A stretch of DNA of 64,000 bases from Coffea arabica. Lineage: Eukaryota; Streptophyta; Magnoliopsida; Gentianales; Rubiaceae. The translations under genes and the position numbers were made by a program. The stretch spans positions 4,898,001-4,962,000 of the forward strand of contig NC_092329.1 in NCBI RefSeq assembly GCF_036785885.1. The letters are read 5' to 3'. Positions 27,891 to 63,522 of this stretch are shown one piece after another. Each line of letters opens with the position of its first letter. Positions within the stretch are counted from its first letter, which is position 1. The notes beneath the pieces were generated by a model. That model was not told the origin of the DNA and did not search any database. It was given only the letters and a program-made list of their open reading frames with translations.

Positions 27891-27913
27891 TCCTGCAGAC
27901 GAGCTGACATCTG

Positions 27914-30193: not shown

Positions 30194-30399
30194 ACTATCT
30201 TTCGCCTTATCATCCTCACTGGCATCTTGGGCAAGTGCAGATTCAATATATCGATGTAATTTTCATGCCTTGAGATGGGTTATCATTTATTTCTGTTAAA
30301 AATTGAAACTCCACATTTATTTTGAGTTTTTGAATAAAACAAATAATATTGGGGTTAAAGCTTGCTATATTTCAATCTACCATAACTTTGGTACCACTT

Positions 30400-30721: not shown

Positions 30722-30927
30722 ATATCTGTGTCATATTCTTTGTATTTTCTACCATTGATATAGTTTTCTTTATCAAGCAAAAGAAAATCGTACTGGAAAT
30801 GTTTCCAACTAGTTTATTAATTACATTGGCTTCCGTTTTATTAAAAAAAAAAAAAAAAAATTGGAGTTGCCGATGTGCTGATGCATTAGTCGGAGAGACG
30901 AGCAATTATGGATTTCTTTTCCTGGGC

Positions 30928-32200: not shown

Positions 32201-33271
32201 TGGTAGGACAGACACACGAAAGTAAGCAATGGCGGCCACGTTGAAGTAATGCTTTAGAATATGAATGAACTTCCACTAATCTTGATTTTTGTTTTTTTGG
32301 GGCAGTATTGGCTGACACGTTTGAGGCTGTGAGTGAGATAAGAAGACTTGGAAAATGATGAGGCTTGATACTGTTTCGTTTCGTTCGAAAATTATATACC
32401 TGTATTAATTTAGAGAGGACAACATCATTAACAGAAGCCAGTGGAGTTTTTCTCCGGGCGGTCTCCGAACCTTAGGCATCGTCCATGACGGATCAATGTA
32501 ATGCTTTTTTCCTAAACAAACGTCGTCGTGCTTAGTAAAAGTTGCTATTAAAGATTGATAGGTTACGTACGATACGACCCACTAAGAATTAGTTGGACGG
32601 AGTTTTCCTGTTAAGAAAGGCAAAAGAAAAAGAAAAGAAAAGAAAAGAGAAATATTGAATGGGATAGCCACAGCCATTGAAAAGAACCCCATAATCTTCT
32701 CCAGTTTATTCTTTCAAAACTAACATTATTCAAAGGGAAAATTGCAGAAGCCTTCCTGTTGTTTTTGACAATTTCACTGTCAAGATTTTAAAAATTACAC
32801 TAATCTCCGTCAATTTAATAATATTAGTAGCAAAACCTTAAAATTTCTAATTGACTTGGTCAAAATTTTAAATAAATACTTTAAAATGTCCCTGTTTAGT
32901 AAAGTTTGATTTACTTTCATAAAAAATTGCAAGATAAGTTAGCACAATTATGAGGGATGGGTCCCAAAGTTTTTATGCGTTTGATGAGAAACTATGACAA
33001 TAATTGTGTATTACAACAATGGGCAACTTTGTTCTGGGGACAGATAGGTAGGTAATGCATCGCAATAGAGAGATAGCTTAGTTTAGGGATTTCCTGAGGT
33101 AAATCTTGGGGGTTTTCCTATACCTTTGGATAAGCCTACTACATGCACCATCTTTCCAATGAAAAGTAGATGAGTTTAATTTGCATAAACAAAAAACGTG
33201 CCTTTTTTTTTTTTTACTTTTTGTTTTGACGTTAATGAGCTAAGTACTTCGAAGATGGAGTAGGAAAACAC

Positions 33272-33279
33272 TATAAATA
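33272..33279 (+). promoter_or_regulatory. Putative TATA box of the second intact patatin gene
   Basis: TATAAATA in the same context and at a similar distance (173 bases) from the ATG as in the first intact gene. Confidence 0.6.
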
Positions 33280-33444
33280 CCCCCACTTCGTCATGGATGC
33301 AGCACACAAAAGTTTCAACAATCACAATATACAAGTCTAAAAAGGGTTTCATTTTCTTCCTTGTTTTGCTTCATTTTAGTATTTGAAACCTTCATTTTCT
33401 GAGTTCTTTTTCTCCATTCCTTTGTATTTAACTTACAATCCATC

Positions 33445-35803
33445 ATGGCAACCACCGTATCAGCTTTGAAGCCTCAATCTTATGGAAATTGTGTGACCAT
33501 CCTAAGCATTGATGGTGGAGGGATCAGAGGAATCATCCCCGGAGTAATCCTTGGATATTTAGAGACTGAGCTTCAGGTTTGAAAATAATTAATCTCTCCA
33601 ATCTTTAATTTTGTGTAGCGTAACTACACAATCATGGACTCGATTTGCACGACTATTCCATGGACCAAAAGGAAAATTGAATCTCTCTTTGTACTAATTC
33701 ATTTCTTGAATGGCCTTGGTGTAGAAATTCTCTTTGTACATAATTCATTTTTGGAATGGCCTTGGTGCAGAAATTGGATGGTTCGGATGTAAGACTTGCT
33801 GACTACTTTGATGTGATTGCCGGCACAAGCACTGGTGGCCTTGTGACTGCCATGCTTACAGCTCCAAATGAGAAGAAAAGACCTCTTTATGCTGCGAAAG
33901 ATATCAAGGACTTCTACCTTGAGGAGTGTCCCAAAATCTTCCCTCAATCAAAGTAGATATCTTAATTAGACTTTTTTTTTTTATACCATATCTTAATTAG
34001 ACTTTTTTTTTTATACCATATCTTAATTAGACTCGATCCATCTTCATTCCAAATAATTTAATGCGTACTATATCAAGAAACTCAAATTGTGTATGCTACT
34101 TTTAACTTACAATTGACACGACTTTCGTCCATGACCAGTCATCTATTCAGTGGAGTCGAAAACGTGGTGAAATCAATGACAGGACCCAGCTATGACGGGA
34201 AATATCTCCATTGCATGCTCCGGGAAAAGCTTGGCCAGAGCAGATTGCACGATGCATTGACTAATGTTGTCATCCCAGCTTTCGACGTCAAACTATTCCA
34301 GCCCACCATCTTCTCCAGCTATGCAGTTCGTACCAATTCAAGAAACCTTGGTTATTTTAGTTAGACTATTGTTTACTTTTATCTCATCCAACAGAAATTA
34401 ATATGGTTCGTGTTTTTAATGGCTCAGATGAAGCGCTTTTCAAGTTTGGACGCCTTGCTCAGCGATATATGCATATCAACTTCGGCTGCTCCTACTTATC
34501 TTCCTGCCCACAAATTCGAAACTAAGGAACCTGATGGCAGCACAAGAGAATTTCACATGATCGATGGTGGCATGGCGGCCAACAATCCGGTAAGATATTA
34601 AATCTCATCTATCCCATGTTAATTTGAGAGCCATGCACTAATTATTTTATTACAAAATTATTACTTTCCTCATGATTACTGCAATTTTATATCTGTCGAC
34701 TGTATTTTCTTCAGACCTTAGTTGCTATGGGCCAAGTGACTAGGGAGATTAGTCGAGGAAATCCCGACTTCGCCTCTGTCGGTTCATCGGATTATAGTCG
34801 TTTCATTGTTCTGTCCTTGGGAACGGGTACTACAAAAGCGGGAGGGTTTGATGCTGAGGATGTTGCCAAGTGGGGACTCTTGTCTTGGCTGACAAATGCT
34901 AATACAACTCCTATAATAGATATATACACTCAAGCAAGTGGCGATATCGCTGATCTTCATCTTTCCACTATTTTTCAAACTATGCAGTGTCAAGAAAATT
35001 ATCTGCGAATTCAGGTAAAAGTCTTTGCGCTAGCTGTACTCTTTTATCTTTTTTTTGCTTACACTTGAAAAAATAATTAAGAAAAAAAAATTGGAAGTAA
35101 AAAAGAAAGCAATATGAGCTATATTAGTACGAACCTTGAAGGCCCTGATTTATATATAGTTTTTCTGTCCTCCAAATAGTATATAAGCGTACGCTTGTAC
35201 AAACATGCATATTTCAGGATGACACGTTATCTGGAGACCTGGGTTCTGTGGATCTTGCCACAAAGGAAAATTTAGAGAATCTTGTCAAAGTTGGGGAGAA
35301 TTTGTTGAAGAAACCGCTTTCTAGGACTAATTTGCAGAGTGGTGCTAGTGAGTCCGTGAACAAGGGCACAAACGAGGAGGCTCTCAAAAGGTGCAAACCA
35401 TCGTCCTCAAGCCCTTTTTTCTTTTGCTTATCAAGTTACATTGATTTAATTCAATTTATCTACTCTTCGACTACCCTTTGATCTATTTGGTTTGAATTAC
35501 TTATTAGAAAACAGATTTTAAAATTCGGCACTCCTAGAATTACTTTATTTACAAATATATTAGTCCTAAAAACTGCCATGACTGACTATAAAAATTTTCA
35601 GATGTGATACACAAATCTGAAAAAAAAAAATTGATCTAACCAAAAAAAAAAAAGCAAAAAAATATTTACTGTTTTTTCAAAAATATCTAGATTTCTTGAA
35701 TTTGCTCAATCTTGCTTTTTAATTTGATCTTTGAATATGTAGGTTGGCAGCATCACTCTCTCAGGAGAGGCGCCTTCGTCTTTCGAACAAGTCCAAGAAA
35801 TGA
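33445..35803 (+). CDS. Patatin-like phospholipase, intact 7-exon gene 2 (398 aa)
   Basis: Exons: 33445-33576, 33771-33952, 34139-34325, 34428-34589, 34715-35014, 35218-35390, 35743-35803. All junctions are GT-AG and the joined frame is 398 codons plus stop. It has DGGGIRG (23-29), GTSTGG with nucleophile Ser64, and Asp213 in [10 protein letters not shown], the features of an active patatin-type acyl hydrolase on phospho- and galactolipids. No signal peptide or membrane segment. It is a near-identical duplicate of the gene at 7639-9702, and exon 2 differs by one residue (Ala51 to Val). The last exon ends early at SNKSKK, removing the extra residues of its twin. Intron 6 is longer. The shared TATA region suggests similar regulation. 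Confidence 0.93.
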
Positions 35804-36129
35804 TCTTCTGAAGGCTCAACGCTGTTAAGTGTGATAATTTATAATTGAAGCACTTGTCGTAAAAATATACATATTATACGTTGACTACGTATGTGTATGT
35901 GTAAAATAAGTAAATCCCCAATAAGTGTCCGTACCAATTCCGGGGAAGAGATTGTAATTTCCTTCCAGTGTTGCTGTAATTTATTTTCAATAATCAGGAC
36001 TTTGAAATTTGAATAATCAGCTCATTGTACCTTTTGTTTTCCAAAGTTCTTTCTTGCACATGAATTCGTTTACTTTATTAGTTACTCCACTATTCATTGT
36101 GTGAACTGTGAGGTCTTAAGATTTTATAA

Positions 36130-36575
36130 AAATGCAGTTTTGGTATCTAAAATTTGACATAGAAGCTATTTTTGGTCCACAAACTTCAGAAAAAAGCAAA
36201 TTTGATATCCAATCTTTCAACTTTTGAGCACATTTAATACCCTTGATGATTTTTTCCAAATTACTATCGAAATGAGTCATGTCATAGTCACATGTCTGTC
36301 AACTATTATGTTAAAAATGCTAAAAAATGTAAAATATCCTTCTGACACTAAGTATTGAGTTCAAGGACTACATTTCTTTTTACACAATAGTTACCGGATA
36401 TGTGACTATCACGTGACTTTTTCCGATAGTAATTTGCGAAAATTTCGTTAAAGGTACTAAATGTGCTCAAAACTTAAAAGATTGGATACCAGGTTTATTT
36501 TTGTCCAAAGTTCGGAGACTAAAAGCGCTCACAGATAACAAAATTTAAGTACCAAGATTGCATTTTTCTCTTAAT
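36130..36575. mobile_element. Foldback MITE
   Basis: The left end (AAAATGCAGTTTTGGTATCTAA) and the right end (TTAAGTACCAAGATTGCATTTT) are inverted copies. Inner parts are also complementary, for example ATCCAATCTTTCAACTTTTGAGC against CTCAAAACTTAAAAGATTGGAT. About 440 bp, non-coding. Confidence 0.65.
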
Positions 36576-36683
36576 TTCCTGCTGGCGTTGCAATTGAAAG
36601 TTTGGAAGCCGTTTATAGAAGTTATCAACATTCGCGTCCCCCCTACAACGATACAGAGGGAAAAAAAGATGCACCGAGATTAC

Positions 36684-36754
36684 CATTTTCAAGATAAAAG
36701 AGCTCGATGTCTTTAGCAGCGAAAACAGGACGCTTGTTTTCATCTGGAGCTGCT
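36684..36754 (-). pseudogene. Patatin exon 2 relic
   Basis: About 70 bases encode [20 protein letters not shown] and LENG, the second half of patatin exon 2, followed by a degenerate donor and sequence matching intron 2 of the intact minus-strand gene. The GXSXG part is gone: homology stops at about 36,754. It is most simply the displaced exon 2 of the dismembered gene at 24010-30927. Confidence 0.75.
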
Positions 36755-36793
36755 GTCGGTTCTGGACCAAAATAATCACATTGGTTAGAAGAA

Positions 36794-36832
36794 CTAGTTG
36801 ATTGGGCCTCACGCGTTGCGTGAGGTTGCCCA
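36794..36832 (-). mobile_element. Helitron 3' end (minus strand)
   Basis: On the minus strand a hairpin CCTCACGC-AAC-GCGTGAGG is followed by CCCAATCAACTAG and then T, the same architecture as the two complete Helitrons here. The matching 5' TC end, which would lie to the right, was not identified, so only the terminus is annotated. Confidence 0.55.
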
Positions 36833-37958
36833 GGCAGTGTACTTCTATTGTATCCAATATGTATATGTATGATAGTTGTTGGATAGAATTTGTTATATTG
36901 AAAGAGAACATTAGAGAGAATAGGTGGTGAAAAAGGAAAAATCAAAGGATGTTCGGATCTTAAATGATTCAGTTATACGTCTAGTTCATATACTTACGCG
37001 ATTATGCCTAAACAAACCAGTGATGGTACATGTGATTTAGAAATCATTTACTGCAATAGATGAAGCTAATATAAAGGTCTTTTTCTCTACTATAGTGAGC
37101 TGGTTTATTGTTGTTCCCCATGAATGCAAGAGGGAACGCATATTGGATATCTGGCCTTTGCAATGCCTTCAGGAACATGGCTCAAATAACATTCCGGTGG
37201 TTCTTTGAGTTTGAGCCACAAGACTTGATATTGAAAAGATAATAGATAGATGGGCACTGGTAACTATCATTGATGGCTATTCAATCAAGATGTTTAGCAG
37301 ATATTTTTCCTTTCAATCCGGAAAATTGTTGCCACATTGTAAAGATACATGGCCTTTCAATCTAAGCATATGCTATTTATTCACTCTGTTGTTCGCAATG
37401 TACAGAAAATTGGTTTACCATCGAATTTTTATGAACTGATTCTGCGACTTTAGGAGGAATTTCAATTGCATTTACTGCAATAGTGCACAGCTCATTGATA
37501 GAATTCCGCAGCAGAAGACAATGGCCAAATGCCGAACACCGCTCTATTTCTTTTATGATTACTGGTGATGTGTAGGTTTTTGAACCATGATCAAACCGAG
37601 CAGAAGAAGCCTCACAACAAAGCACTATTGCACCACACCATTAGTACTTTTTCCTTTTTTGGAGGGGGCGCACCATTAGCACTTGAATCCCAATTGTCGA
37701 GTAATTAATGGGCTGAAATGACGAAAAAGTCAATAACTCATACTATGTTGGCATTCCTCATAAAGGGGCAAAATAGGTACCAAGGGGTAGGATAGTAAAA
37801 CGCCATCACAATATCAAATCCCAGCCGACCGATCCTTCATCAGGACCTCACCATCACTTTAGCCTTTGCTGTGAAATTCCAAAAATGATCACACAGCCAA
37901 GGTGCCAATGGGGACGAAAGTCACTGTTCCTAACTCCATTCCCGCTTTTATTCTTTTA
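36833..37958. other. Intergenic, nothing recognised
   Basis: Possibly the body of the Helitron whose 3' end lies at 36794. No conserved frame, LTR or inverted repeats noted. Confidence 0.35.
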
Positions 37959-43194: not shown

Positions 43195-46100
43195 TTAAGT
43201 GAGGGGTGGAGGTTTTGCAGTTTTGCTGGTTAAAGGAGATCTAAGCTCCCGTAGTCTTCTTTCCTCAGAAAGCAGCCTTGCGAACCTACAACAGATGGGA
43301 AGACAAATGAGTCATACTTTACAAAAATTACTCAAGGTTGGAAGATTAGAGAAATTGAGCCCGGTTACAATATTGCACAAATTAGATATATTGAATTGCT
43401 GAGTAGTTTTTGTGCGTGAAGGAGCTAGATGCTCAAGCCTTTGATAAAAAAAAAAAAAAGAACATTCTTTTGATAGACTAATAATTTGTAGCAAGAAAAC
43501 TGGTGAAGAGAATTAAAGCCTCAATTATATGACTGAAAGAATAACATTATTGGTGAAATTAATAGTTGCAAGATTGAGTCCACACCTTTTTAGAGCTTCC
43601 TCATTCGTACCGCCATTTGCTATTGTCTCAACTGAACCAGTCTGCTGATTGACCCTAGAACCGGGTTTTTTCAGCAGTTGGGTGCCTGTAATAACCAAGT
43701 TGTCCAAATTCTTCTTTGTTGCAATATCAACCGAAGAAACCGTCCCGATCAATGTATCATCCTGAATGCGAAGGTAATTATCTTCAGAGTGAAGAGCTCG
43801 GAAGACTTCAGAAATGTGCAAATCAACCATATCTGCACTGGCTTGCGTGAAAACATCCACTAAGGGAGTGGAATGACCGCTAATTAACCACCCGAAAACA
43901 CCCCATTTGGCAGCCTTTGCTGCATTGTATCTTTGCTCAACTTTTGCTGATCCTGTGCCTATTGAAATCACTAGAAAACGGCCATAATCCATGGGCTTAA
44001 TTGGGAAGAAATCTGGATTTCCGTGGAAGATCTGTTTAGTTACTTGGCTTATTGCAACCAAAGCCTGCCGCACCAAAGAAATCGATGCCAAATTATTCAT
44101 GTAATCCATTTATCAAACTTGTATATTGTAGTGGGGCCCAGACGCACATCGGCCCGGGCCACGAACAGCCCAGTCCGACCCACGAGCTCGGACTGGAGGT
44201 GATGGGCCACGGTTTCAGGTCGGCCCATGCAGGCGCCGCCTCTCAGGCGTAGGGGCCTGATGGGCTGCGAGGTCCGCATCCTTAGGCTTGTGTCATGGAG
44301 CCCTAGGAGTCATTCACTCTAGTAAGGACTCCTTGTCCTACCAGGAAGCTACTACCTGAGCATCTATAAATACTACACAAAAGAGAGGCACAAGGTACGC
44401 TATTCACAGCACAAGCACTACTCTTTACTTACGAATCTTCTTCTGACTTGATCGTCGGAGTTGCTACAGGGGACCTAGCCCCGCAGCTCGCCTGTGTGCA
44501 GGTCAGACCGCTCAGCTCGCCCTCCACGCATCTGGCCAGGTCGGACCTTCTCTTCGGCAGTCGCATCAATTGGCGCCGTCTGTGGGAACACGTTACTTCT
44601 CTTCGCGAATCATGCCGAAAACTAGGTCTCAAAGGAACGCTGGTGGATCCAAAGGGATGGAGCGAAGCGGCCCGCAAAACTCTCATCCGACACCTGAAGG
44701 AGCAGGGGCGGGGCCCTCACGGATCCCACCCGAACAGCTGGTGCAGACGGTGGCAGCAAACCTGCCCACCTTCGAGGCGATCATGGACTACCTCAAAGGG
44801 CAGTCGGGAGGTCATTCCGACAAGGAGCCTAAGGTACAAGGAGCCGACCTGTCAGGGTCCCGAACTGGGAGTCCCAATCACGGGGCCAAGCGGACGCATC
44901 GGGAACTCACGCGTGAGCAGGTCGAGGTTGTAGAGCCATCTCACAAGAATTCCCGAACTGAACATCCGGAGCCCGTCCGGAGGCTCTCCCCCCGGAGGGA
45001 GCGACAACAGGTACGGGACGAGCTTGACCTAATCCTCGACCCGGAGGCGGAGAGGTACATTGCTTCCCCCTTTGTGCTTGACATCGAGGAATACCAACTG
45101 CCCGCGAAGTTCAAAATTCCAACCATGAAACCTTACGATGCCACCACGGATCCGGAAGACCACCTGTTCGTATTCATGACGCAGATGCGCTTACAAACGG
45201 CCGCGGATGCGGTCAGGTGCAAGACCTTCCCGATGTTCCTAGAAGGAAGGGCTCGGCAGTGGTTTCAGGGGCTTCCCCCCAGATCGATCAGCTCTTTCAC
45301 CCAGCTCGCGCGAGCATTCTCGGCACAGTTCGTTTCCTCACGAGCCTTCTCTAAAAGCACCGCTCACCTTATGACCATCCAACAAAAGGTCGAGGAATCA
45401 CTGCGTGAATACATGGTGCGGTTCAATAACGAATCCCTCCAGGTCCGTGACCGAGATGACAAGGTGGTCATGGCTGCCTTCATTAACGGGCTACGGAAGC
45501 AGAAGTTATACACCGAGCTCGTGGAGAGACCGCCCAAATCAGTTAGGGAGATGCTGGATCGAGCTCATGAGAAGGCCAATGCTGAAGAGGCTAATCGCTT
45601 GAAGAGCGCTCAGGAGAGGCAGAGGGACGACAAGCGCCGAAGATTAACCGACCAAGGAGACGTTCGACGTGACCAAGGGCGGAAGCCTACCTATGACCAC
45701 CCGCCTAGAGGCCGACCCCTAGGGGGGGACAAGCCTTGGACTTCCCTCACGGCTCCCCGAGCTCGGGTCCTCGCGGTGATGGAGCAAGAGGGACTTTCCC
45801 GACCTCCCCGGCCCTTGGCCGGGGATAGAAACAGGAGAGATCAGGACCTGTACTGTGCGTACCACAGGGATGTGGGGCACGACACTGAAGACTGCCGCCA
45901 CCTTAAGAAGGAAATTGAAAAGCTGATCCGGAGGGGTCATCTTGGCCAGTTCGTCCGCGAGGGGCGAACTGATCAGAAGCAGGGAGGATTCAAACGAGAT
46001 CGGGCGTCCAGCTCGCACGACCGACCTCGGGGTCCTCGGGAGCGGACTCCGGTACGTGGGGTGCCGAATCTGGCGGGAGTAATCAACACTATTGCAGGGG

Positions 46101-49100
46101 GACCTGCTGGAGGGGATAGCCATTCGGCTCGGCGAAATAACAGACCTCCCCCCAGTGGGGAGAGCTCAAACAAGCGCTTAAAGATGTACGAGGAGATCGT
46201 CTATGGGCCGGAGGATGCGGTACCCTTAGCTTCCAATAACCACGAGGCAATAGTGATAGAAGTCGTCACGTGTAACTATAAGGTAAAAAAGGTGTACATT
46301 GACAATGGGAGCGCTATCGATGTGTTGTACTACAAGGCCTTCAGAGAACTGCAGCTGGAAGATAAGCAGCTCATCCCAGTTCATACTCCCTTAATAGGTT
46401 TTGCAGGTCCGCCGGTAAGGCCTGAGGGAATGATAACCCTCCAGGTCACTATAGGGGAGTCACCAAGGTGCCGAACTGTTTCGGTGAATTTCGCGGTGGT
46501 AAAGGAGCCGTCCTCCTACAACATGATATTGGGACGTCCAACCTTAAACGCACTCCGAGCTGTCTGTTCGACCTTACACCTCAGCATGAAATTCCCCACT
46601 CCCGAGGGAGTGGCCGAGGTGCAGGGGGACCCGGAGGTAGCTCGAGCCTGCTATATTGCAACCCTCAAGGGTAAGGAGAAGCTGGTGGCGCAGACAGTCC
46701 TTCTGGAGCCCTGGGAGCCTACTGAGAAGGAGGAGAGGTTGGAGACGGACGAAAATCTGCTTGAATTGCTTGTCAACCCCAAGCGACCTGATCGAGTGGT
46801 TAAGGCGGGATCTGGACTAAACGAGCAGGTAAGGAGGGCCCTGGAGTCCCTCCTGGAGGAGTACGCCGAGATCTTTGCTTGGAGTGCCGATGACATGCCA
46901 GGAGTTCCTCCCGAACTGGCAGTCCACAAGCTGCATGTGAATCCGAGCATCCGGCCAGTGAAACAGAAGAAGAGAAACTTTGCACCTGAACGCAACGAGG
47001 TCGTTAAAGAAGAGGTGGGCAAGCTGTTGGAGGCTAGAATTGTGAAAGAGATCCACTATCCGACCTGGCTGGCCAACCCGGTGCTGGTCAAAAAGGAGGA
47101 CAAGGCTTGGCGGATGTGCGTGGATTTCACCGACCTGAATAAGGCTTGCCCGAAGGATTGCTACCCTCTCCCTCGCATCGACCAGCTGGTCGACTCAACA
47201 ACTGGGTACGAGATCTTCTGCTTTCTGGATGCTTTCAAAGGGTATCACCAGATAGCTCTGGCTGAGGAGGATCAAGAGAAGACTGCCTTCATCACCGAAT
47301 ACGGTACGTATTGTTATACCACCATGCCATTTGAGTTGAAAAATGCAGGCGCGACCTATCAGCGGCTGGTCAATAAGCTGTTCAAAAACCAGATCGGCCG
47401 AAACATGGAGGTATACGTGGATGACATGCTGGTGAAAAGCCGAACTCAGGAGCAGTTCGTCGACGACCTCAGGGAGATCTTTGACGTCCTACGGAGCTCG
47501 CGGATGCGACTAAATCCCAAGAAGTGCACCTTCGGGGTCAGGTCGGGCAAGTTTCTTGGATACATGATATCAAAAGACGGAGTAAGGGCTAACCCCGACA
47601 AGGTAAAAGCCATCATGGACATGGCTTCTCCCCGAAGCATAAAAGAGGTTCAACGGCTAGCTGGCAGGATGGCGGCCTTGAACAGGTTCTTGTCGAAATC
47701 TGCAGTTCGGGGTTTCCCTTTCTTCAGGGCCCTGCGAAGAGGCCCTCAGTTCGAGTGGACCCCCGAGTGTCAGCAAGCGTTTGACCAGCTGAAAGCCCAC
47801 ATCGCGCGATTGCCGTCCTTGACCTCTCCTGCGCATGGAGAAACCTTATTTATCTATCTAGCAGTAGGGGAGGAGGCGATCAGTGCGGTACTAGTTCGGG
47901 AAGAAGGAAAAGTCCAGAAGCCTATATACTATGTCAGCCGAGCTCTGCAGGGCGCGGAGACAAGGTACACCTCGATTGAGCGATATGTCTTGGCGTTAGT
48001 TCACGCGGCTCGGAAGCTCAGGTCATATTTCCAAGCTCACCCTGTGGTGGTTATGACCGACCAGCCATTCAAGCAAATTCTTTCAAGGCCTGACGCCTCA
48101 GGGAGAATGGTGAGGTGGGCCATGGAGCTGTCCGGATACGACCTCGGCTACCAACCTCGCACGGCCATTAAGGCCCAAGCATTGGCAGATTTCATAGCCG
48201 AAGGGGTCTCCTTCGGACAACCGGAACCACAGGTCAAACGAACCAGAGACACAGCCGAGGCCCCGCAGGTCGGAGAAGCTGTCGAGGCCACACAGACCAC
48301 CCAGTCCCGAACGACCCAAGGCGTGGCAGAGGCCAAGCAGGCCGAAAAAGCTGCCCAGGTCGAGCGAGCCACCAAGGCTTTCGAGGCCGAGCAGGCGGAG
48401 GGACATGTCAAGGTCGGGCAGGCCACAAAGGGAGCTCAGGCCGGACAGATCGGAGAAGCAGCAGAGGCTGAACATGCCGAAGAGGCTGTCGAGATCGAAC
48501 AGGCCACTGGCGAAATTGATCAGATCATTCCAGTCTGGACCCTGTTCGTGGATGGGTCGTCAAGCAAGGAAGGATGCGGAGCAGGGCTCCTCCTGACTAG
48601 CCCTATGGGGGATGAGTTGGCCTATGCCCTGAGGTTTGATTTCAGGGCCTCTAACAACGAGTCCGAATACGAGGCCCTGGTCGCAGGGATGGTGATAGCT
48701 CGGAAGTTGGGGGCTGAGTCAATAGAAGTTTACAGCGACTCACAGCTGATAGTCAACCAGGTAGGGGGAAGTTACGAAGTTAAGGAGGAGCCCCTAAAAA
48801 GGTACGTCGCCAAAGTGCATGAGCTAAGGGCCCAGTTCAAGGTATTCGTGCTCAAGCAGGTCCCTCGGAGCCAAAATAAGAGGGCGGATGCCCTGTCCAG
48901 GCTAGCTTCCACCTCGGTTGGTACGTTGAACAAAGAAGTCTTGGTGGAAGTCGTCAGAAATCGGGCGTATGACCAGGTGGACTTGTCTGTTATTCAAATA
49001 GTGAGCTCATGGATGGATCCCATTGTACGGTGTTTAGCTAGTGGAGAGCTCCCTCAAGACCGGGTGGAGGCGCGAAGGGTCCTCCTCAGGTCGCGGGGAT

Positions 49101-52100
49101 ACGAGCTCTCGAATGGGGTGCTTTACAGGAAATCCTACCTACGCCCGTGGCTGAGGTGCATTACTCCGGAAGAGGGACACTACATCCTGCGTGAGCTGCA
49201 CGAGGGCATCTGTGGAAACCACGTCGGCCCGAGGGTTTTGGCCAAGAAAGGAATGCTGTCTGGTTACTACTGGCCGACCATGTTCTTGGATTCGATTGAG
49301 CTGGTAACTCGGTGCAAGTCCTGCCAGCTGCATGCGCCGATCCATCACGCCCCGACTCAGGAGATGATCCCTCTTCAGAGCCCTTGGCCTTTTTTCCAAT
49401 GGGGAATCGACTTGTTGGGTCCATTTCCCCGAGCTCCAGGGGGTTATGAGCATGTGGTTGTGGCTGTAGACTATTTCACCAAATGGGTGGAGGCCGAGCC
49501 CCTTATCACCATTAGCAGCAGATCGGTGCAGAAGTTCCTCTGGAAGAACATCGTTTGCCGATTTGGTATACCCCATGTCCTGGTCTCAGACAACGGACGC
49601 CAGTTCGCTGACGTTGCTCTTCAAGGTTGGTGCACGGAGCTCGGAATCCGGCAGCGCTTCACCTCGGTAGGCCACCCTCAGGCAAACGGCCAGGTCGAAA
49701 ACGTCAACAGGACCATACTGCACGGCTTAAAGACACGGATGGAGTCCGCCCGAACTGGGTGGTTGGACGAACTGCCGACCATACTGTGGGCTTACCGAAC
49801 CACTTCCCGAACTGCTACTCAGGAGACTCCTTTCGTGCTGACCTATGGAGCAGAGGCTGTGATCCCGGCGGAGATAGGTGTTCCTTCGAACAGGGTTCAG
49901 AACTTCATAGCTCAGGACAATGAAGAGGAGCTGCGTCTTAACCTGGACTTGCTGGAAGGAAGGAGAGAAGAAGCAGCTATACGCCTGGCCAAGTATAAGG
50001 GACAGATCGCGCGACACTACAATGCTAGGGTAAAGCCTCTGGCTTTTAAGCCAGGGGACCTGGTCCTGAGAAAGAACAGCGTAAGTCGGCTTCAGGGCAC
50101 TGGCAAGCTGGGTCCAAATTGGAAAGGACCCTATGTGGTGAAAGAAGCAGACCGAGCTGGATACTGCAGGTTAGCTCACCTCAGCGGGGAAGAGGTCCCT
50201 CGTACTTGGCACAATTCCAACCTGAGGATTTTTCGTTAGGCTCGCACATGACAGTTCGGCTAAAGGTCAAAACTTCGATTAATGTTGATGTATTTCGTTA
50301 ACAAGTTATTCTGTCTTAGAGTAGCTCGTTTAGGTCGGTATCGGGCCGAACGGGTGTATCTTGTGACAAAGTTTGTCGAATAAAACTAAGTATGAAGCAA
50401 AATTATGCAAAAGGCTTTTCATTGAATTCATCAAAACTGTTCAAAAGGGAGCCGAGCTCACACAAAAGAAATTGAGCGGGGGCAGAGCAAGGCTCGTACA
50501 AAAAGAACTGCCTGCCAACAGTTCGGGGCCTATCCTACGACCTACTCTAGTTCTCCCCCTCTTCTTCCTCCTGCTCGGATTCGGGGGTGGTCACAGGCAG
50601 TAGGGGGTCCGCCACCAGGTCGGCCAGCTTGCGCCCACGCGTGTAGCCCTCTACCAGACGGTCCACTTGCTCGATAGCCTGGGGGTTGTAGCTTGTGAAC
50701 TTTCCCAGGTCGAATCCAGGCAGACCCAGCTCTTGCACCTCCTTCAGGGCCAGGGAGTACCCATGATGGAGCACGGGGGTGTTCAGGGCAGCCAGGTCAT
50801 TCGTAAAGTCTGTCGACCTGAGATAGGTCCGTACTCCCTCTTGGCGACCTTCGGCCCTGGCCGCCTCGATCTGAGCAGACAACTCGGCGCTCTTTCTCTG
50901 CTCCTCCTTCAGCTGGGAGGACAGGTCGGAGTTTTTCTTCAGCTCCAGTTCGAAGCTTGAGTGCGCCTGGGCGAGCTGCTTTTTCAAACCTTCAGTTTCG
51001 ACCACGGCTGCTTCGTTTTGGCTTAGCAGTTTCTCGTTGGCAGCCTTTGTTTCGCTCATCAGGGGGAGCAGGCTCTCGTAGCGCTTTGCCAGCTCGGACC
51101 CGACCACATTCACCTGAGCCGCGCCTGTGTAATAGTAGTCGAGGAGGTCGGACGACTCCATGGCCTTAACCAAGTTGAAGTCTCGCGGTAGGATGGCCCC
51201 GTGGGCGAGCTCCCTGGCTGCATGTGGAAATTGGGCTCGATCGTTTATGGAGAGCCTCCACTGGGGACAGAAGTGCATTGGATGTTGGTGCGTGACCAAC
51301 CGCGTCTGCGGGTCGAACAGCAGGGTAGAGCTCCGGTGTTGCCACAGGTTAGGAGGAGCTCCGGCCCGGGCTTGCTCCTCGGCGGTGTTCACACCGTAGT
51401 GGACGTCCTGACCGGGCTCAGGCGTCGGCCTCTCTTCCTGAGCTGGGGACGAGGTCGTCTCCACCCTGGCTCTCTTGGCGGTCGTTTTCTTCTTCTTCTT
51501 TTTTTCAGCCTCTACGGGCTTAGAGGACTGGGCAGGAGCTGGCTGGAGCGGTGGAACCGGAGCCGAGCTGGCCGGGATGGCTACGGAGGGCTGCGGGGTG
51601 GTGCCCGGAGTGCTGGCGCCTCCGATGGTCAGAAGTGAAGAAAATCTCTTCACTGCACATGAAGAAGATCAGAAGGTCAGTGGAGGCCAAAAAAAAAAAA
51701 AAAAAAAAAAAAGAGGAAGAAAGGAAAGACTGAGGTCCAGGTCGATTACAGGCTGTCAGCTCGTCCGGCGATAAAGATTTATTTTCAGGCGAGGGATCTG
51801 AGGGATTAGCTCGGATCAGCCCCGCCGCCCAAAGCTGGGCATTGCTGAACTCTTTCACCTCCAGTTTCTCTTCCGAGCTGAGTAGCCGGTTGAGCTCGTT
51901 CACAGGGAGCGGGGACGGAAGTGGATCCGAGACCTGAGACTCCGCCCTCCAGGTCAGGGGGGGGAAGCCCAGGTTCTTCACAAAGAAGAAGTAACGCTTC
52001 CAGTCTTTAATTGAGGAAGGTGCTCCTGTGAACAGTTCACGGGTGGGGGTTTTTGCTCCACTTCTCCGGGCAAAATAGAACCACCCAGGCACCTTCCCGC

Positions 52101-55100
52101 TGACCTTCATCTGGAAGAAGGCTTGGAACAGGTCGTGAGAAAATGGGATTTCTAAGGCACGACATAGGATAAAGAAACCTATGATGGAGCGGACGCCATT
52201 GGGAATGACCTGGGTTATGCGGATGCCCCAGAAAGTGAGGATAAAGAAAAGGAAATCAGGGATAGGCAAGCGGAGGCCAGCCATTAGCTGGTCCCTGTAG
52301 ATCGCCACGAACCCGGGAGGAGGTCGGCTGGCGACCTCTCCGGGGTGGGCAGCCCTAGGTTCAAAATGGGCTGGGATTTCGTACTTTTCTACCAGCACGT
52401 CTACGTCCTTTTGCTCCAGGGCTGGGGGGATAGTGTCGACCTCTCCGAAGTCGCCACTAGGTCCTCCCGAGGTCCCTGCTGCCGTCTGGATCGGAGCTGC
52501 CTGTTCAGCAGCTCCAACTAAGGGCTGGGCAGGTCGCTCCACTGGGCTCATGTCTCTAACAGGAGGCTGGACGGAAGAAGGCGCGGGTATTGGCCCAAAT
52601 GAAATTGAAGGGGAAGAACTAAAGGAATCGGAGGAGCTGCTATCTAAGAATATGGGGCTAGACGTCCTATGCCTAGGGGCTGAGCTGGTGACGTCAGAAC
52701 TATCAGAACTATAAGAAGACATAAAAAGGAAAAGGGGAACTTACTGATGGGAGGAGATCGGATGAAAGGCTGATCTAAGGATAGCGCGAACTGACTCTGG
52801 ACTCCTAAAGCTGGGCGATCCGACGTGCTCTCGGGAGAAAGAAAGTGAAACAGAGAACTAAGGAGGGGAGGAGCGAACTGACAAAATGAAGGAAGGGGTG
52901 TGAAAATGACGCCCAAGAAACCTATTTATAGACAACTCACAAGGCGGGAAGATGAAGGGACGTGCATTTATTTGAACCGTTATGGGAAACCGTTCCTAAC
53001 CGTCGTAGCTGGCGGACGTGACGATCGAGGTGACTGACGCGAACCGACGCGACGGTTGCGTGCACCACTCTTAGACAGGGGCCCCACACCGAGCTGACGC
53101 GATGCCAGAAAGACGGCTAGACTCACGCGCACAGTCGATGACTCTAGACTAGAGGGGGGGCTAGTGTAGTGGGGCCCAGACGCACATCGGCCCGGGCCAC
53201 GAACAGCCCAGTCCGACCCACGAGCTCGGACTGGAGGTGATGGGCCACGGTTTCAGGTCGGCCCATGCAGGCGCCGCCTCTCAGGCGTAGGGGCCTGATG
53301 GGCTGCGAGGTCCGCATCCTTAGGCTTGTGTCATGGAGCCCTAGGAGTCATTCACTCCAGTAAGGACACCTTGTCCTACCAGGAAGCTACTACCTGAGCA
53401 TCTATAAATACTACACAAAAGAGAGGCACAAGGTACGCTATTCACAGCACAAGCACTACTCTTTACTTACGAATCTTCTTCTGACTTGATCGTCGGAGTT
53501 GCTACAGGGGACCTAGCCCCGCAGCTCGCCTGTGTGCAGGTCAGACCGCTCAGCTCGCCCTCCACGCATCTGGCCAGGTCGGACCTTCTCTTCGGCAGTC
53601 GCATCATATATCAATCAATGTTTTCATTTTCTTTTAATTTTTAATTTTTTCCCTTTTTCTCTTTGTCAGGTCTTGGGCAGTAAATGGGGCAATATGTAAA
53701 TGTGATAGTTTTTATGATCCTTAACAACCTGTCACTGGTCTATTACAAAGTCCATTATAAAATTTTCGCATTTAATTTTCCACTGTATATAATATATGTA
53801 TGTACTAAACCGTCTGCAAATTAGAAATAAATCACTGGCATGTTGTATATTCTAATGCAAAAATTGTAATCCAGCATATATAGGTAGAGGGAATCTCGAA
53901 ATTTAATAATCGTGAGTAGATCGAAGGCCATACCGGATTATTTGCGGCAACACCACCATCGATAAGATTGAACTCTTGAACATTTCCGAGTTCATCGTGA
54001 TTCTGGAAGTAATATGCAGGAAGATAAGTTGGAGCTGCAGACGTGCTGATGCATAAGTCGGATAGACGAGCATCCATGGATTTCTTTTCCTTGGCCTGCA
54101 TGCATATGGTTGGGAGTAGAAGTCAAAATCCCAATTCAAATGCTAAGGCATATTACAAATTCGAAAATTCTAAGGTTGGATATGTTCTTGTCCTACCCTG
54201 TGCTTTGAGTCTTAACTGTAGTACTACATAATAATTGATGCATGATTAAGGTCTAAAGTGGTCGGGCAAGTTTGCTCAAAAAAGTTGAGACTTTGGAACC
54301 ATGCGCTTGTTGCAATATGTGAATAATTGACTATAGCCACTACTCATGGGGGTTAAGTCCAAGGTCGTGAATAAATCTCCCCAATAATACTAAAGTTAAT
54401 TGGACTTCAAAGGCCTTCGGGTTCTCATAATTTAAATCTTCCACAGTCAATTTAACAGAAAGATTAGTTTTTTGTTTAATGTTTTTTTTTTTTTTGAAGG
54501 AACAAGAAGATTGTTAACTTGTGAAAAGCAAAGGCGTGACTAATAAACACTAAAATATTGCCGCTTAACGGGTAGCAGTTGTCAGTCAGAAATGTCAAAC
54601 CTAACCGTCAACAGATTGATTTGTTCAACTATTTTTTTTTTCTTTTTTCCCGGTGATAGGATAAGGTTTCACTTCTAGTCCGCATACAGAGAGAGACCTC
54701 ATAAGTTGAGAAAATTGTGGGCTGCAAATTCTTGATATCAAAAGTTGGAACGACGATATTGGTCAGGGTTTCATGCAACCGAATCTCGCCCAGTTTCTCC
54801 CTCACAACTTGGTGAAGATACTGGCCATCATACTTGGGTCCGAACAAAGCATTCAAAGCACTTCTTACTGATGCGAGTCTGCCCCTGTAATTGAAATTTT
54901 GGAAGCCATTTAACTGAGATAAGATCAAGTAGTATAAGTTTGTATTATCAGGAAAAGAGGGAAAAATTAAAAAAAAAAGAGAACAGATTACCACTTCTGG
55001 GGGAATATCTTAGGGCCGTTTTCAAGATAAAAGGGCTTGATGTCTTTAGCAGCAAATAAAGGACGCTTGTTTTCATCTGGAGCGGCTAACATGGAAGTTA

Positions 55101-55562
55101 TTAAGCCACCTGTGCTTGTTCCTGCTATCACGTCAAAGTAATCTGCAAGTCTTGCATCCTCCCCGTCCAGCTCCTATACATCAAATGATAGTGCATAAAA
55201 TTTCTCCTCGGATTGAGATAAGGTACATGAGCATATTTTTTTTTTTGGGCCGAGAAAGAAGAAGAAGGAAGGGAGATAGGACGGGTGAGGATCGAACTGC
55301 TCTTCTAAAACAAGAAGCAAAGACACTTAATCACTAGAAACGGTAATACTGAAATCTGCAAATATATATATGTATGCATACACACACATATATGTATGCA
55401 TGTATATAGTTTGAAAGTCACCTGAAGTTGAGATTCAAGGTACTCAAGGATTACGGCAGGAATCAGTCCTCTAATGCCACCTCCATCTATGCTAAGGATT
55501 GTGATTAGATTTCCATACGTCGGGGGCTGCATGGGGAGAAGAGATGATAGTACCCTCTCCAT
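43195..55562 (-). CDS. Patatin-like phospholipase with a 9.9-kb intron (412 aa)
   Basis: Exons on the minus strand: 55562-55422, 55173-54995, 54884-54698, 54095-53934, 44064-43586, 43285-43195. Every junction is GT-AG and they join in frame to 412 residues. Motifs are DGGGIRG (26-32), GTSTGG with nucleophile Ser67, and Asp215 in [10 protein letters not shown], so a Ser-Asp acyl hydrolase of the patatin type is predicted. Exons 5 and 6 of the plus-strand genes are fused here. Intron 4 (44065-53933) contains a complete Gypsy retrotransposon in antisense orientation; without it the intron would be about 0.4 kb. The start is set at 55562 by homology; an in-frame ATG at 55607 and one at 55532 are alternatives. 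Coding capacity is intact, but splicing across the insertion is unproven. Confidence 0.85.
44127..44568 (+). repeat. 5' LTR of the Gypsy element
   Basis: 442 bp, TGTAGTGGGG...CGCATCA, with a TATAAATA box at 44365-44372. It differs from the 3' LTR at two sites (CTCTAGTAAGGACTCC here, CTCCAGTAAGGACACC there). Confidence 0.95.
44365..44372 (+). promoter_or_regulatory. LTR TATA box
   Basis: TATAAATA in the 5' LTR, 196 bases before the LTR end; conserved in the 3' LTR. Likely core promoter for the genomic transcript. Confidence 0.6.
44569..44590 (+). promoter_or_regulatory. Primer-binding site
   Basis: TTGGCGCCGTCTGTGGGAAC begins at 44570, one base after the 5' LTR, and would pair with the 3' end of a host tRNA. 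Sequences of this form are common in Tat/Ogre-type elements; the tRNA should be confirmed. Confidence 0.75.
44612..50239 (+). CDS. Gypsy gag-pol polyprotein, uninterrupted
   Basis: The frame is open from 44570, but the likely start is the ATG at 44612 (MPKTRSQRN). Counting from 44570: gag with the [12 protein letters not shown] retrotransposon-gag signature; a CX2-type knuckle near [18 protein letters not shown]; protease with IDNGSA (Asp578); reverse transcriptase with [11 protein letters not shown] (Asp887) and YVDD (949-952); a first RNase H ending ADFIAE; an Ala/Glu/Gln-rich repeat linker of roughly 80 residues; a second RNase H from about 1323 ([26 protein letters not shown]); and integrase with an HHCC finger from about 1544 and DD35E at Asp1614, Asp1674 and Glu1710. 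All catalytic residues are present, so it may be competent. Gag, protease and pol share one frame. Confidence 0.93.
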   Translation: MPKTRSQRNAGGSKGMERSGPQNSHPTPEGAGAGPSRIPPEQLVQTVAANLPTFEAIMDYLKGQSGGHSDKEPKVQGADLSGSRTGSPNHGAKRTHRELTREQVEVVEPSHKNSRTEHPEPVRRLSPRRERQQVRDELDLILDPEAERYIASPFVLDIEEYQLPAKFKIPTMKPYDATTDPEDHLFVFMTQMRLQTAADAVRCKTFPMFLEGRARQWFQGLPPRSISSFTQLARAFSAQFVSSRAFSKSTAHLMTIQQKVEESLREYMVRFNNESLQVRDRDDKVVMAAFINGLRKQKLYTELVERPPKSVREMLDRAHEKANAEEANRLKSAQERQRDDKRRRLTDQGDVRRDQGRKPTYDHPPRGRPLGGDKPWTSLTAPRARVLAVMEQEGLSRPPRPLAGDRNRRDQDLYCAYHRDVGHDTEDCRHLKKEIEKLIRRGHLGQFVREGRTDQKQGGFKRDRASSSHDRPRGPRERTPVRGVPNLAGVINTIAGGPAGGDSHSARRNNRPPPSGESSNKRLKMYEEIVYGPEDAVPLASNNHEAIVIEVVTCNYKVKKVYIDNGSAIDVLYYKAFRELQLEDKQLIPVHTPLIGFAGPPVRPEGMITLQVTIGESPRCRTVSVNFAVVKEPSSYNMILGRPTLNALRAVCSTLHLSMKFPTPEGVAEVQGDPEVARACYIATLKGKEKLVAQTVLLEPWEPTEKEERLETDENLLELLVNPKRPDRVVKAGSGLNEQVRRALESLLEEYAEIFAWSADDMPGVPPELAVHKLHVNPSIRPVKQKKRNFAPERNEVVKEEVGKLLEARIVKEIHYPTWLANPVLVKKEDKAWRMCVDFTDLNKACPKDCYPLPRIDQLVDSTTGYEIFCFLDAFKGYHQIALAEEDQEKTAFITEYGTYCYTTMPFELKNAGATYQRLVNKLFKNQIGRNMEVYVDDMLVKSRTQEQFVDDLREIFDVLRSSRMRLNPKKCTFGVRSGKFLGYMISKDGVRANPDKVKAIMDMASPRSIKEVQRLAGRMAALNRFLSKSAVRGFPFFRALRRGPQFEWTPECQQAFDQLKAHIARLPSLTSPAHGETLFIYLAVGEEAISAVLVREEGKVQKPIYYVSRALQGAETRYTSIERYVLALVHAARKLRSYFQAHPVVVMTDQPFKQILSRPDASGRMVRWAMELSGYDLGYQPRTAIKAQALADFIAEGVSFGQPEPQVKRTRDTAEAPQVGEAVEATQTTQSRTTQGVAEAKQAEKAAQVERATKAFEAEQAEGHVKVGQATKGAQAGQIGEAAEAEHAEEAVEIEQATGEIDQIIPVWTLFVDGSSSKEGCGAGLLLTSPMGDELAYALRFDFRASNNESEYEALVAGMVIARKLGAESIEVYSDSQLIVNQVGGSYEVKEEPLKRYVAKVHELRAQFKVFVLKQVPRSQNKRADALSRLASTSVGTLNKEVLVEVVRNRAYDQVDLSVIQIVSSWMDPIVRCLASGELPQDRVEARRVLLRSRGYELSNGVLYRKSYLRPWLRCITPEEGHYILRELHEGICGNHVGPRVLAKKGMLSGYYWPTMFLDSIELVTRCKSCQLHAPIHHAPTQEMIPLQSPWPFFQWGIDLLGPFPRAPGGYEHVVVAVDYFTKWVEAEPLITISSRSVQKFLWKNIVCRFGIPHVLVSDNGRQFADVALQGWCTELGIRQRFTSVGHPQANGQVENVNRTILHGLKTRMESARTGWLDELPTILWAYRTTSRTATQETPFVLTYGAEAVIPAEIGVPSNRVQNFIAQDNEEELRLNLDLLEGRREEAAIRLAKYKGQIARHYNARVKPLAFKPGDLVLRKNSVSRLQGTGKLGPNWKGPYVVKEADRAGYCRLAHLSGEEVPRTWHNSNLRIFR
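50547..52722 (-). CDS. Antisense two-exon ORF of the Gypsy element (692 aa)
   Basis: Exon 1 runs 52722-51750 and exon 2 51652-50547. Exon 1 begins ATG with a Ser-rich N-terminus and contains a hydrophobic/aromatic block ([20 protein letters not shown] ... WFYFARRSG ... [10 protein letters not shown]) resembling the plant gypsy-type putative transposase family (Pfam Transposase_28). A 97-bp intron (donor GTAATC, T-run polypyrimidine tract, acceptor TGTGCAG) joins it in frame to exon 2, which is Ala/Glu-rich and probably coiled-coil ([20 protein letters not shown]) with an acidic end. Antisense ORFs after pol are known in Tat elements; the function is unknown. Since the element is antisense to the patatin gene, this ORF lies in the gene's sense. 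Confidence 0.75.
51653..51749 (-). other. Predicted intron of the antisense ORF
   Basis: GT at 51749-51748 and AG at 51654-51653 on the minus strand, with a pyrimidine tract including a run of about 23 T. Removal joins a phase-1 codon (T) to TG, giving Leu, and keeps both long frames open. Without splicing exon 1 runs on in a short Phe-rich tail to a stop. Confidence 0.65.
53150..53164 (+). promoter_or_regulatory. Polypurine tract
   Basis: AGAGGGGGGGCTAG lies directly before the 3' LTR and is the expected plus-strand primer. Confidence 0.75.
53165..53606 (+). repeat. 3' LTR of the Gypsy element
   Basis: 442 bp with the same termini as the 5' LTR; two substitutions relative to it. Confidence 0.95.
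55343..55411. repeat. AT/GT/CA-rich simple repeat in intron 1
   Basis: Interleaved ATAT, GTATGCAT and CACACA motifs in intron 1 of the minus-strand patatin gene, able to fold on itself. Confidence 0.5.
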
Positions 55563-57415: not shown

Positions 57416-58956
57416 TGATAGGTTGCGATTTTATTATTTATTTTATTATTAATTTCCCCTATTGCCTAATCCAACGTGGATTAATTGTTGGATTCTACTC
57501 ACTTTTAGTATTTTGTATTTATTTCAGGAAGTAAAATGAAAATATGATAACGGGTACCAATTTAACAGAAAAGGAGTCCAAATGATAGAGTTTATCCAGG
57601 GGCATTTTTGGAAAATAAGACAGTACGCCTAGTTGGGTAATTTCTGCGAAGGCAAGGACGGAACGAGGGCTGAAGTTTTTCTCTCGGCTGGGGGCGCCGC
57701 ACAGGGCATGAGAGTAGACTTTTAGATAGGAATACTTTTGGAGTTGCTTTTGTTGACTTTTCCTTGGTTGGCTTTTGCTTAGCTTCAATTCTCGTATGTC
57801 AATTAGCACAATTGAATGATTCCCTGTAGCTTTTCTATTTGACGTTGGCTTTTCGTCCTTTGTGGTTCTCCTGCCGCGTATGCTGGAACAATTGAAGGAT
57901 TTAATCATTCTAGGCAGTTTTCGCTTCCTATCATCGTTTGAAGCAAATTGAAATTTCCCAAACGTAGAAGATGGCCGCAGCTTTTGTTTCAATTTCGTAT
58001 GGCTTTTTCTCATAAAAAATGAACTAATCTCCTCACTCTAGTCAAGGAACAACCGAGGTTTTGATTTACCTAAAAATTATGAGATCAATTTAATTTTATC
58101 TTTTTCTTTTATTTATTGGTATTCGCATATTCTTTGATTGCAGTACTTGTGATTATTTAATTAATTGATTGTTTTGGATCTGGATAATTAGTTAACTCGA
58201 TAATCTATTGTCAATTAAGGCATTAAATCCGTAATTGTTTAATTGCCTTAAAATAGTGACAACTGGCATAATTAGACTTGTGCCAGGGAATACGCGGGCT
58301 AATCTAAAATAACCCTGGTAGTGCGTTATTTGGTTAGAATAGAACTCCTCTAATACGTAAGGCAATTGGAGAATTAAATCTTATGGGCATACGTAGGATT
58401 ATTTCTCAATTAGAGTATTGATTAACGGGCGTACCTTAATCACCGACACAGTAAGGAGGGGTTGACTGTCATCGCTTGTTTGGCAGTTATAACCTATTTA
58501 TTAATAAATAATTGGAATTGCTAGTGCATCGCTGATCATGTAGGTGAATCATTGTTGAAGTTATTTCTTGGCTAGACTTTTAATTATTATTACCTTGTTT
58601 TTAGTGAATTGTCATTTAATTTTTAGTTGGCTATTTTACTCTTAGTTGAATTGTTTTAATTGCCACCCTTTATAAAAAAAACACCCCCTGTGTTACTTTG
58701 GATTTCTAAAGAGACAAATATCCCCAATTCCTGAGGATACGACCCTATTTGACCTGTCTACAAATTCATAATTATTTGTGAAAAAAACCATCCTATTCGG
58801 GTATATCGGATCAAGCAAACTCTTCGCGAACAGGGTGAATCAAGTAACCCATTGCACACCTAGAGTCCCTGCTCCAGTACTTGGAATCGGGTTTTGGTTA
58901 CTTTAACTGGCAATTAGGTTTATTTTTATTATTATACAGGCTTCGACAGCTTGTCA
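57416..58956 (-). mobile_element. Solo LTR, 1541 bp, copy 2 (opposite orientation)
   Basis: The reverse complement aligns with 4609-6045 over its length. Ends on the plus strand are TGATAGGTTG and ...CGACAGCTTGTCA. Perfect 5-bp duplications CTTTT lie at 57411-57415 and 58957-58961. There is no internal region, so it is a recombination-derived solo LTR. Substitutions and indels against copy 1 are common, and the target duplications differ, so these are independent insertions. Confidence 0.85.
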
Positions 58957-61434: not shown

Positions 61435-63522
61435 CTAGGGGGTGATTGCTGCTCCCACCAACGCCTTGGACTGCCTTAGTTTTCTTTCATCTGACAGTAA
61501 TTTTGCAAACCTATGAAATAAGTGCATCCGGATGAAATTAGTTAGCAAAACTAATTTTGAAGAATTAAAAACAAAATAGTTTGTCGCAGTATGATGTCCC
61601 TCAGATCCATAGTCTCTACCTATTCAAAGCTTCTGCATTTGTTCCCCCATTATTGACAGGCTCAGAGAGGCCTGTCGCCAGATTAACTCTTGCAACCGGT
61701 TTTTCCAGCAAGTCTTCTCCAATTTTTGACAGTCTCTCAATATTCTTCTCCCCCGCACCATCGAGGCATCGTTCTGTCCCTGTTAATGCGTCATCCTAAT
61801 ATGCATTTATGCGCGTTTGATTAATTAGCTAGTTAAATTTCAGTAGCATTAAGAATTATCAGGAAAAGTTGAAGCCGTGCATTTAACAAATAAAAAAAAT
61901 ATATTGATAGGCATACTTGAATTCGGAGGTAATTATCTTCAGAATGAAGCGCTTGAAAATGTGAAGAAAGATGGAAATCGACCATGCTTGCAGTGGCTTG
62001 AGTAAATGCATCCACAATGGGTCTTGAACCTCCGCTAAATAACCAACCTAAAACACCCCATTTGGCAGCCCTTTTCGAGTTATATTTCTTCTGCACCTTC
62101 CCAGAACCTGTGCCTAGAGATATAACTAGGAAATGACAGTAATCCATTGGATTGATAGGAAGGAAATCCGGGTTTCTGCCAAAAACGTGTTTGGCAAGTC
62201 GGCTTGTGGCTATCTGTGACTGCAATCAAAGTCGAAGAAGTTTATGATATTGTCCTACTATCCTGACAACCTTTTATCATTTCATTTATTCGCGACCTTA
62301 TACCTTAAAACCAGAAGCAGGGTAATGATAAATCATCGGATAGTCTTTTCTACGAGCCATGTGAATAGGCTTATGCAAACTTGCAAAGTTCAAGGGTTAG
62401 GTTATGTCGAAAGGCATGGAACAAAGGAACCATGTGTGCACCAACGGATTACATGCACGTCACATTTATAAAATTTAGAGTTTAAACTTAAATTGAGATA
62501 GTGTATCATGTATCTAAACTCGTTAGTGTATATATATATTGTCTAAATCAGAATGTATAAATTTTTTTCTTCGAAAATGGTATGCCATATAGGCGCTGTA
62601 TATACTTCAGTACGTACCGGATTACTTGCAGCAACGCCACCATCAATAAGATTGAATTCGCGAACAATCCCGGCGTCATCCTTGGTTGTGAAATAATGGG
62701 GAGGAAAGTAAGTCGGAGTTGCAAAGGTGCTAACGCAGATGTCAGCTAACCGAGCATTCAACCCTGCAGAGCTGTAAGCCTATAACATGGTATGATCATA
62801 GTACTCCAGAATTTAGATAAAGTTGATCCTCATTTGTTTTAATTTATTTTTTGTGTTTTTTTCCTAGTTTCTGCACAAAGAAAGAGTGATTACCTCGTAA
62901 GAGGAAAAAATAGTTGGTTGCAGCTGCTTGATGTCGAACGTAGGAATAATAACGTTTGTCAAGGAATCAGTCATCCGCTTCTCACCGAGGATGTCTCTGG
63001 TGAACCTTCGAAGATACTTGCCGCTGTACTTTGGACCCGTTACCGATCTGACTGTATTTCTGATATATCTAGCAATTTTTCCCCTATCATTCACACATAC
63101 AAGAACAAAATAGTTATAACTTATCCTATGACCTTAAAGTGTAGAGATATTGCTTTATATATATATATAGTTTCTACTTATACTATTGATTGATGCAGTG
63201 TAAAGTTGCATTTTAGTGTAAATAAAAGAAAGAGTTTAGAAAGACATAAAATGGAGGAGAATTTATTGATATTAGAAACGGATCATAACTAACAAATCTT
63301 TCTACCCTAAGTAGAAACAAAAATGGTAAAGGCTAAGGTACCTTGTATGTGGAAAAATCTTAGCAATTGCTGTTTGTAGAAGTGGTTTATATCTTTAGCA
63401 GTATAGAGAGGACGGTTATTTTCATCTGGCGCTGTCAATAGCACAGTTGTAAGGCCACCTGTGCCTGTTCCGGCTATCACATCAAAATAATCTGCAATTC
63501 TTGCATCGTCGCCATCCACTTC
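61435..63522 (-). pseudogene. Patatin-like gene lacking the catalytic serine (exons 2-7)
   Basis: Exons on the minus strand: 63522-63342, 63083-62894, 62779-62618, 62219-61917, 61795-61620, 61510-61435. Exon 1 would lie beyond the window. Exon 2 reads GTGTGG where the family has GTSTGG: codon GGC at 63465-63463 replaces AGC, removing the nucleophile. Asp in [11 protein letters not shown] is kept. Exon 2 is 181 nt, one base short of the usual 182, so with the visible donor the join to exon 3 shifts frame. Exons 3-7 by contrast are fully open with canonical sites and a stop, and exons 5 and 6 are separate. It could be a young pseudogene, or a pseudoenzyme if an unseen donor restores the frame. 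Confidence 0.7.

Follow-up and report, generated by a model that had tools for sequence, protein, structure and literature searches.

Complete long terminal repeat (LTR) retrotransposons in plant introns are well documented, and the case described here is a clear-cut instance of a frequent kind of event: a complete element in intron 4 of a patatin-like gene of Coffea arabica, found in a window (the whole stretch analysed) of 64 kb that corresponds to C20:4898001-4962000 of a 1.198 Gb, 131-contig assembly, across which the comparisons below were made. In grapevine, 2,697 introns of 3-100 kb, belonging to 2,563 genes, hold 591 complete LTR elements, and about 30% of grapevine LTR pairs exceed 99% identity (PMC3058033). 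The coffee intron shares with these large introns a complete young LTR retrotransposon and GT-AG ends; the grapevine elements, as that report presents them, are mostly of Copia type and supported by expressed sequence tags, whereas the coffee element is of Gypsy type and known from DNA alone. It also resembles the heterochromatic introns of the IBM2/EDM2/AIPP1 systems of rice (PMC7145194) and Arabidopsis (PMC10241880) in having a transposable element (TE) in an intron and intact exons; intronic heterochromatin is found in over 10% of rice genes (PMC7145194). In humans, intron 2 of PNPLA3, which likewise encodes a patatin domain, has been reported to carry a retroelement, a LINE-1 described as clinically silent (PMC8536765); that insert is a LINE piece of 1,114 bp, and the two events are without kinship. 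Among the matches listed in a literature search combining patatin with intronic retrotransposon insertion, no title dealt with a plant patatin gene carrying such an insert.

The reading that I favour, with a fair degree of confidence, is that a complete, recent, antisense element of Retand type in one of two paired patatin genes is mostly tolerated, that some normal mRNA is still made, and that output is probably lowered. The gene lies on the minus strand (55562-43195), where six exons, with GT-AG borders at all five introns, join in frame into 413 codons plus a stop:

55422-55562, minus strand: exon 1, with the ATG at 55562 and the motif DGGGIRG
54992-55173, minus strand: exon 2, with the nucleophile motif GTSTGG
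54698-54884, minus strand: exon 3
53934-54095, minus strand: exon 4, whose product ends C-terminally in DGGVAANNP
43586-44064, minus strand: exon 5, whose product starts with ALVAIS
43195-43285, minus strand: exon 6, including the stop codon

The product matches the Pfam Patatin domain (E 1.1e-27) and eight distinct PDB sequences in all, among them patatin-17 (1oxw; E 6.6e-100), with which it aligns over residues 16-397. This match is nearly full-length (the patatin-17 chain has 373 residues versus 413 for the coffee product) and brings GTSTGG and DGG of the coffee protein opposite GTSTGG and DGA of patatin-17, so that the two share their motifs. I take these to be the sites of the catalytic serine (GxSxG) and aspartate (DG[GA]). 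A Patatin domain with both motifs, by which a patatin-like phospholipase is recognised, is present, and the product is a patatin-like acyl hydrolase of predicted activity.

Within intron 4 lies a 9,480-bp LTR retrotransposon inserted on the plus strand, antisense to the gene. Its landmarks are:

44122-44126: target site duplication TATAT, left copy
44127-44568, plus strand: 5′ LTR, 442 bp
44570-50239, plus strand: open gag-pol frame, with Pfam matches by piece to Retrotrans_gag, RVT_1, RT_RNaseH, RVT_3, Integrase_H2C2 and rve
50547-51653, minus strand: second antisense open reading frame (ORF), without a Pfam hit at E 0.01
51520-52722, minus strand: antisense TRP28 ORF (Transposase_28, PF04195, E 5.5e-12), in the direction of the patatin gene
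52923-52930, minus strand: TATAAATA box, a candidate internal promoter facing exon 5 and lying some 200 nt upstream of the ATG of the TRP28 ORF
53165-53606, plus strand: 3′ LTR, 442 bp
53403: TATA box TATAAATA in the 3′ LTR, pointing outward to exons 4-1, antisense to the gene
53607-53611: target site duplication TATAT, right copy

The element is complete: its paired LTRs differ by two mismatches, its ends are TG...CA, its target duplication is preserved, and gag, reverse transcriptase, RNase H and integrase stand in an open frame that carries two RNase H domains, RT_RNaseH and the second RNase H, RVT_3. A Pfam scan of the gag-pol piece in which an aspartic protease was expected gave no match; the DNGS motif at 46301 in that frame may be the protease site. 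The layout is that of the Retand lineage, and it is by this layout that the element is assigned to a putative Retand-type Ty3/gypsy. Retand elements have LTRs of 315-1,194 bp and internal regions of 7,380-12,869 bp, and 97% of Retand clusters contain an antisense TRP28 ORF (PMC11963269). With its 442-bp LTRs and an internal region of 8,596 bp the coffee element falls inside both ranges, and it shares with Retand a single gag-pol frame and the position of the TRP28 ORF between pol and the 3′ LTR; in contrast, its stretch from pol to the 3′ LTR, 2,925 bp, misses the lower end of the published range by 8 bp (2,933-6,566 bp; PMC11963269).

A partner locus on contig C19 helps to place the insertion in time. 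There, the flank on the exon 5 side matches up to 3572428 and that on the exon 4 side from 3572434, leaving exactly 5 bp between them, and the alignment runs straight across the joined site, which reads CATAT on C19 versus TATAT in the window. The C19 gene, with the same six exons and again 413 codons, is intact. This exact empty site in an intact gene implies that the insertion postdates the parting of the two copies, which, I infer, are subgenome partners or haplotypes of each other. Of the 32 sites at which their coding sequences differ, 14 are synonymous and 18 nonsynonymous; the ratio of nonsynonymous to synonymous rates is 0.39 (NG86) or 0.45 (YN00), and since nonsynonymous change is the slower of the two (Fisher p 0.010), the pair was under constraint. 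The locus offers a natural matched pair in one genome, two copies of a gene of which one has a complete, recent 9.5-kb element in an intron where the other has none, and the cost of a giant intron could be measured directly by comparing reads from the C19 and C20 copies. The structural claims of the original prediction hold throughout: six minus-strand exons in frame with their catalytic residues, a whole young Gypsy-type element in intron 4, and perfect TATAT duplications on both sides, with the intron (44065-53933) and the place of the insertion in it exact to the base.

Divergence between the two copies is uneven, with 41 of 1,098 sites (3.7%) differing on the exon 5 side versus 39 of 1,941 (2.0%) on the exon 1-4 side (Fisher p 0.006, counts excluding the upstream flank). 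Gene conversion in C19 was considered as the cause and found unsupported, dispersed copies agreeing with the window versus C19 at 15/12 sites (C8), 11/7 (C3) and 7/6 (C4). These dispersed copies are pieces of the 3′ part of the window gene, intron sequence included, on C3, C4 and C8 (L012 1035-2288; L014 1028-1702; L011 1501-2127); inverted repeats of 148 bp (94%) enclose the C3 piece, which in this resembles a gene fragment within a Mutator-type element.

The insertion is recent and dated roughly. Of the two LTR changes, polarised with nine other LTR copies, that in the 5′ LTR is C to T within a CAG context and that in the 3′ LTR is T to A. Two changes in 442 sites give an age of 0.17 million years (My; interval 0.02-0.63) at 1.3e-8 substitutions per site per year and 0.32 My (0.04-1.17) at 7e-9. 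Scaled to the divergence of the partner intron (0.027, with a split at 4-6 My), the age becomes 0.66-1.0 My (0.1-3.0 at 5 My), and scaled to partner synonymous divergence (ratio 0.094) about 0.4-0.6 My. Allopolyploidy of C. arabica has been dated to 350-610 thousand years (PMC11018527), and the LTR-based ages are too broad to set the insertion before or after it. The family to which the element belongs shows K of 0.0036-0.0455 across 12 LTR pairs, the window element included (24 of 30 LTR loci, the other six being without a fetched partner; one pair was aligned over 275 nt only), and five of the 12, the window element among them, lie at 0.0036-0.0046. Family matches fall on paired contigs, with numbers reaching C22. 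A methyltransferase exon on C17 has as its best PDB matches the coffee enzymes 2efj and 2eg5, dimethylxanthine and xanthosine methyltransferases (E 5.4e-61 and 3e-55), well ahead of the next at 2.8e-15; both observations fit Coffea arabica. Among the 40 of 154 candidates that were scored, a number that makes the family copy number a lower bound, the closest LTRs elsewhere in the genome are 92-96% alike to those of the window.

With the insertion, intron 4 can be divided as follows:

44065-53933, minus strand: intron 4, now 9,869 bp, natively 384 nt counting one target copy
53607-53933, minus strand: native donor-side edge, 327 nt including one target copy, G+C 0.304 over 53612-53933
44065-44126, minus strand: native acceptor-side edge, 62 nt including one target copy, with a branch-point-like TTGAT (A at -49)

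An intron at this position is present in all five window paralogues that have both exons, a broken copy among them, with lengths of 121, 125, 125, 398 and 548 bp. In the gene studied here the exon 4 donor and the exon 5 acceptor are native and untouched by the insertion. Since the splice sites and the A+T-rich edges are native, and since splicing frequently removes the intronic LTR elements known from plants, the most likely outcome is that the element would be removed with intron 4 and that some normal mRNA would still be produced. Among eight homozygous Arabidopsis ONSEN insertions with detected expression, for instance, three intronic ones were spliced out whole (PMC12112155), and LTR/Gypsy elements are under-represented in most TE splicing events (PMC10241880). 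The insertion may thus be mostly tolerated, with patatin output probably reduced; expression would probably rely on the element being silenced and on IBM2/EDM2-like host machinery for read-through of heterochromatic introns, and the intact C19 copy would buffer any loss.

Several observations weigh against this favoured reading. The insert is rich in G+C (0.557 versus 0.310 for native intron 4), which suits plant intron recognition poorly, and on the acceptor side just 62 native nt are retained. The native exon 4 donor scores 2.83, less than any of the ten donor-like sites listed for the insert (2.91-4.23), although the top donor-like score is rarer in the insert than in shuffles (1 versus a mean of 3.06); the matrix is a rough one, and no conclusion is drawn from these scores. 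Read in the direction of the gene, the insert has AATAAA twice (shuffle mean 0.82) and AAGAAA four times (0.72), other poly(A)-like words standing at 0 versus 1.12 (AATAAT), 1 versus 1.18 (ATTAAA) and 2 versus 1.13 (AATGAA); these counts, too, permit no conclusion. The LTR and internal TATA boxes, which point outward, could give rise to interfering transcripts. Antisense orientation is no clear shield, because rice intronic TEs show no strong orientation bias (PMC7145194), and seven ONSEN insertions were partially exonized (PMC12112155). Nor does the open frame help much: under a neutral decay model, in which nonsense changes are assumed to make up 5% of substitutions and frameshifts 10%, the chance that a gene inactive from the insertion onward keeps an intact appearance is 0.66-0.80 for an age of 0.17 My and 0.22-0.44 for one of 0.63 My. 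The insertion being so recent, an intact frame is weak evidence of function, and of the original prediction of an otherwise intact gene it is the whole frame that stands, while its value as a hint of continued function is weakened.

A possibility that I regard as real though rather unlikely is that the insertion has silenced or truncated the C20 copy, either because transcripts end in the element or because heterochromatin, together with antisense RNA arising in the 3′ LTR, turns the gene off, leaving C19 to carry the function. The TATA box at 53403 faces exons 4-1 in antisense; antisense transcripts from an antisense ONSEN have been published for GER5 (PMC10241880). The length and G+C richness of the insert, the excess of AATAAA and AAGAAA over shuffle means and the intact state of the C19 partner would also fit a loss of this kind. 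Untouched splice sites speak against it, as does, weakly, the intact frame.

It is quite improbable that the element has instead supplied a new promoter, the antisense TRP28 promoter driving, in gene direction, a chimeric transcript that is spliced into exon 5 and encodes the C-terminal part only. The TATAAATA box upstream of the TRP28 ATG is found in all 11 aligned family copies (the C14:5.0M copy, whose LTRs stand just 1.9 kb apart, is excluded), as is a donor-like GTAAGT at 52744 on the minus strand, 22 nt upstream of that ATG; this conserved site may reflect a spliced leader of the antisense gene, and the equivalent ORF of maize Grande is transcribed from its own promoter (PMC7264820). Conservation of the TATA block is, however, unexceptional and not significant (207 of the 442 columns upstream do not vary, and a run as long as the longest observed turns up in 1,048 of 10,000 shuffles), the transcript would have to span more than 8 kb, and the first in-frame ATG leaves 165 amino acids without GTSTGG and DGG. 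A reading in which the element would act as a two-way switch with antisense RNA from the 3′ LTR over exons 4-1 and chimeras from the TRP28 promoter into exons 5-6, is a long shot; if true, one of the two paired chromosomes would carry the patatin locus as two separate units, each driven by the element. That the assembly wrongly placed the element in the intron has nothing in its favour and is scarcely credible given the perfect target duplication, the TG...CA ends and the 5-bp gap at the partner site, and with the nearest other LTRs among the scored candidates so distinct, confusion between copies is unlikely.

The window as a whole is a tandem patatin cluster, with further copies at 6822-9651 (plus strand), 20956-23178 (plus), 33466-35779 (plus) and 61471-63522 (minus), those at 7.7-9.7 kb and 33.5-35.8 kb being near duplicates of one another. 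At 63352-63522 the last of these reads GTGTGG, versus GTSTGG in the 8 kb copy, the 33.8 kb copy and the gene with the intron insertion; its nucleophile serine seems lost, and it may be a pseudoenzyme. A broken sister copy of the insertion-bearing gene (24455-36942, minus strand) has in-frame stops in the first half of exon 4 and in exon 5, and some 5.3 kb (25545 to 30856) separate the two parts of its exon 4. Because C19 holds both exon 4 parts at similar spacing, this split probably predates the intron insertion. Exon 5 of the insertion-bearing gene (43586-44064) is without the intron that paralogues (9161-9349; 61917-61795) have after NYLRIQ, as is that of the broken sister copy, which looks like a precise loss in the ancestor of the two. 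A scan of the 64-kb window with Rfam at gathering thresholds gave no matches. At 4773-6045 and 57416-58656, about 51-53 kb apart, lie the arms of inverted repeats, which are 151-352 nt long and 73-87% alike.

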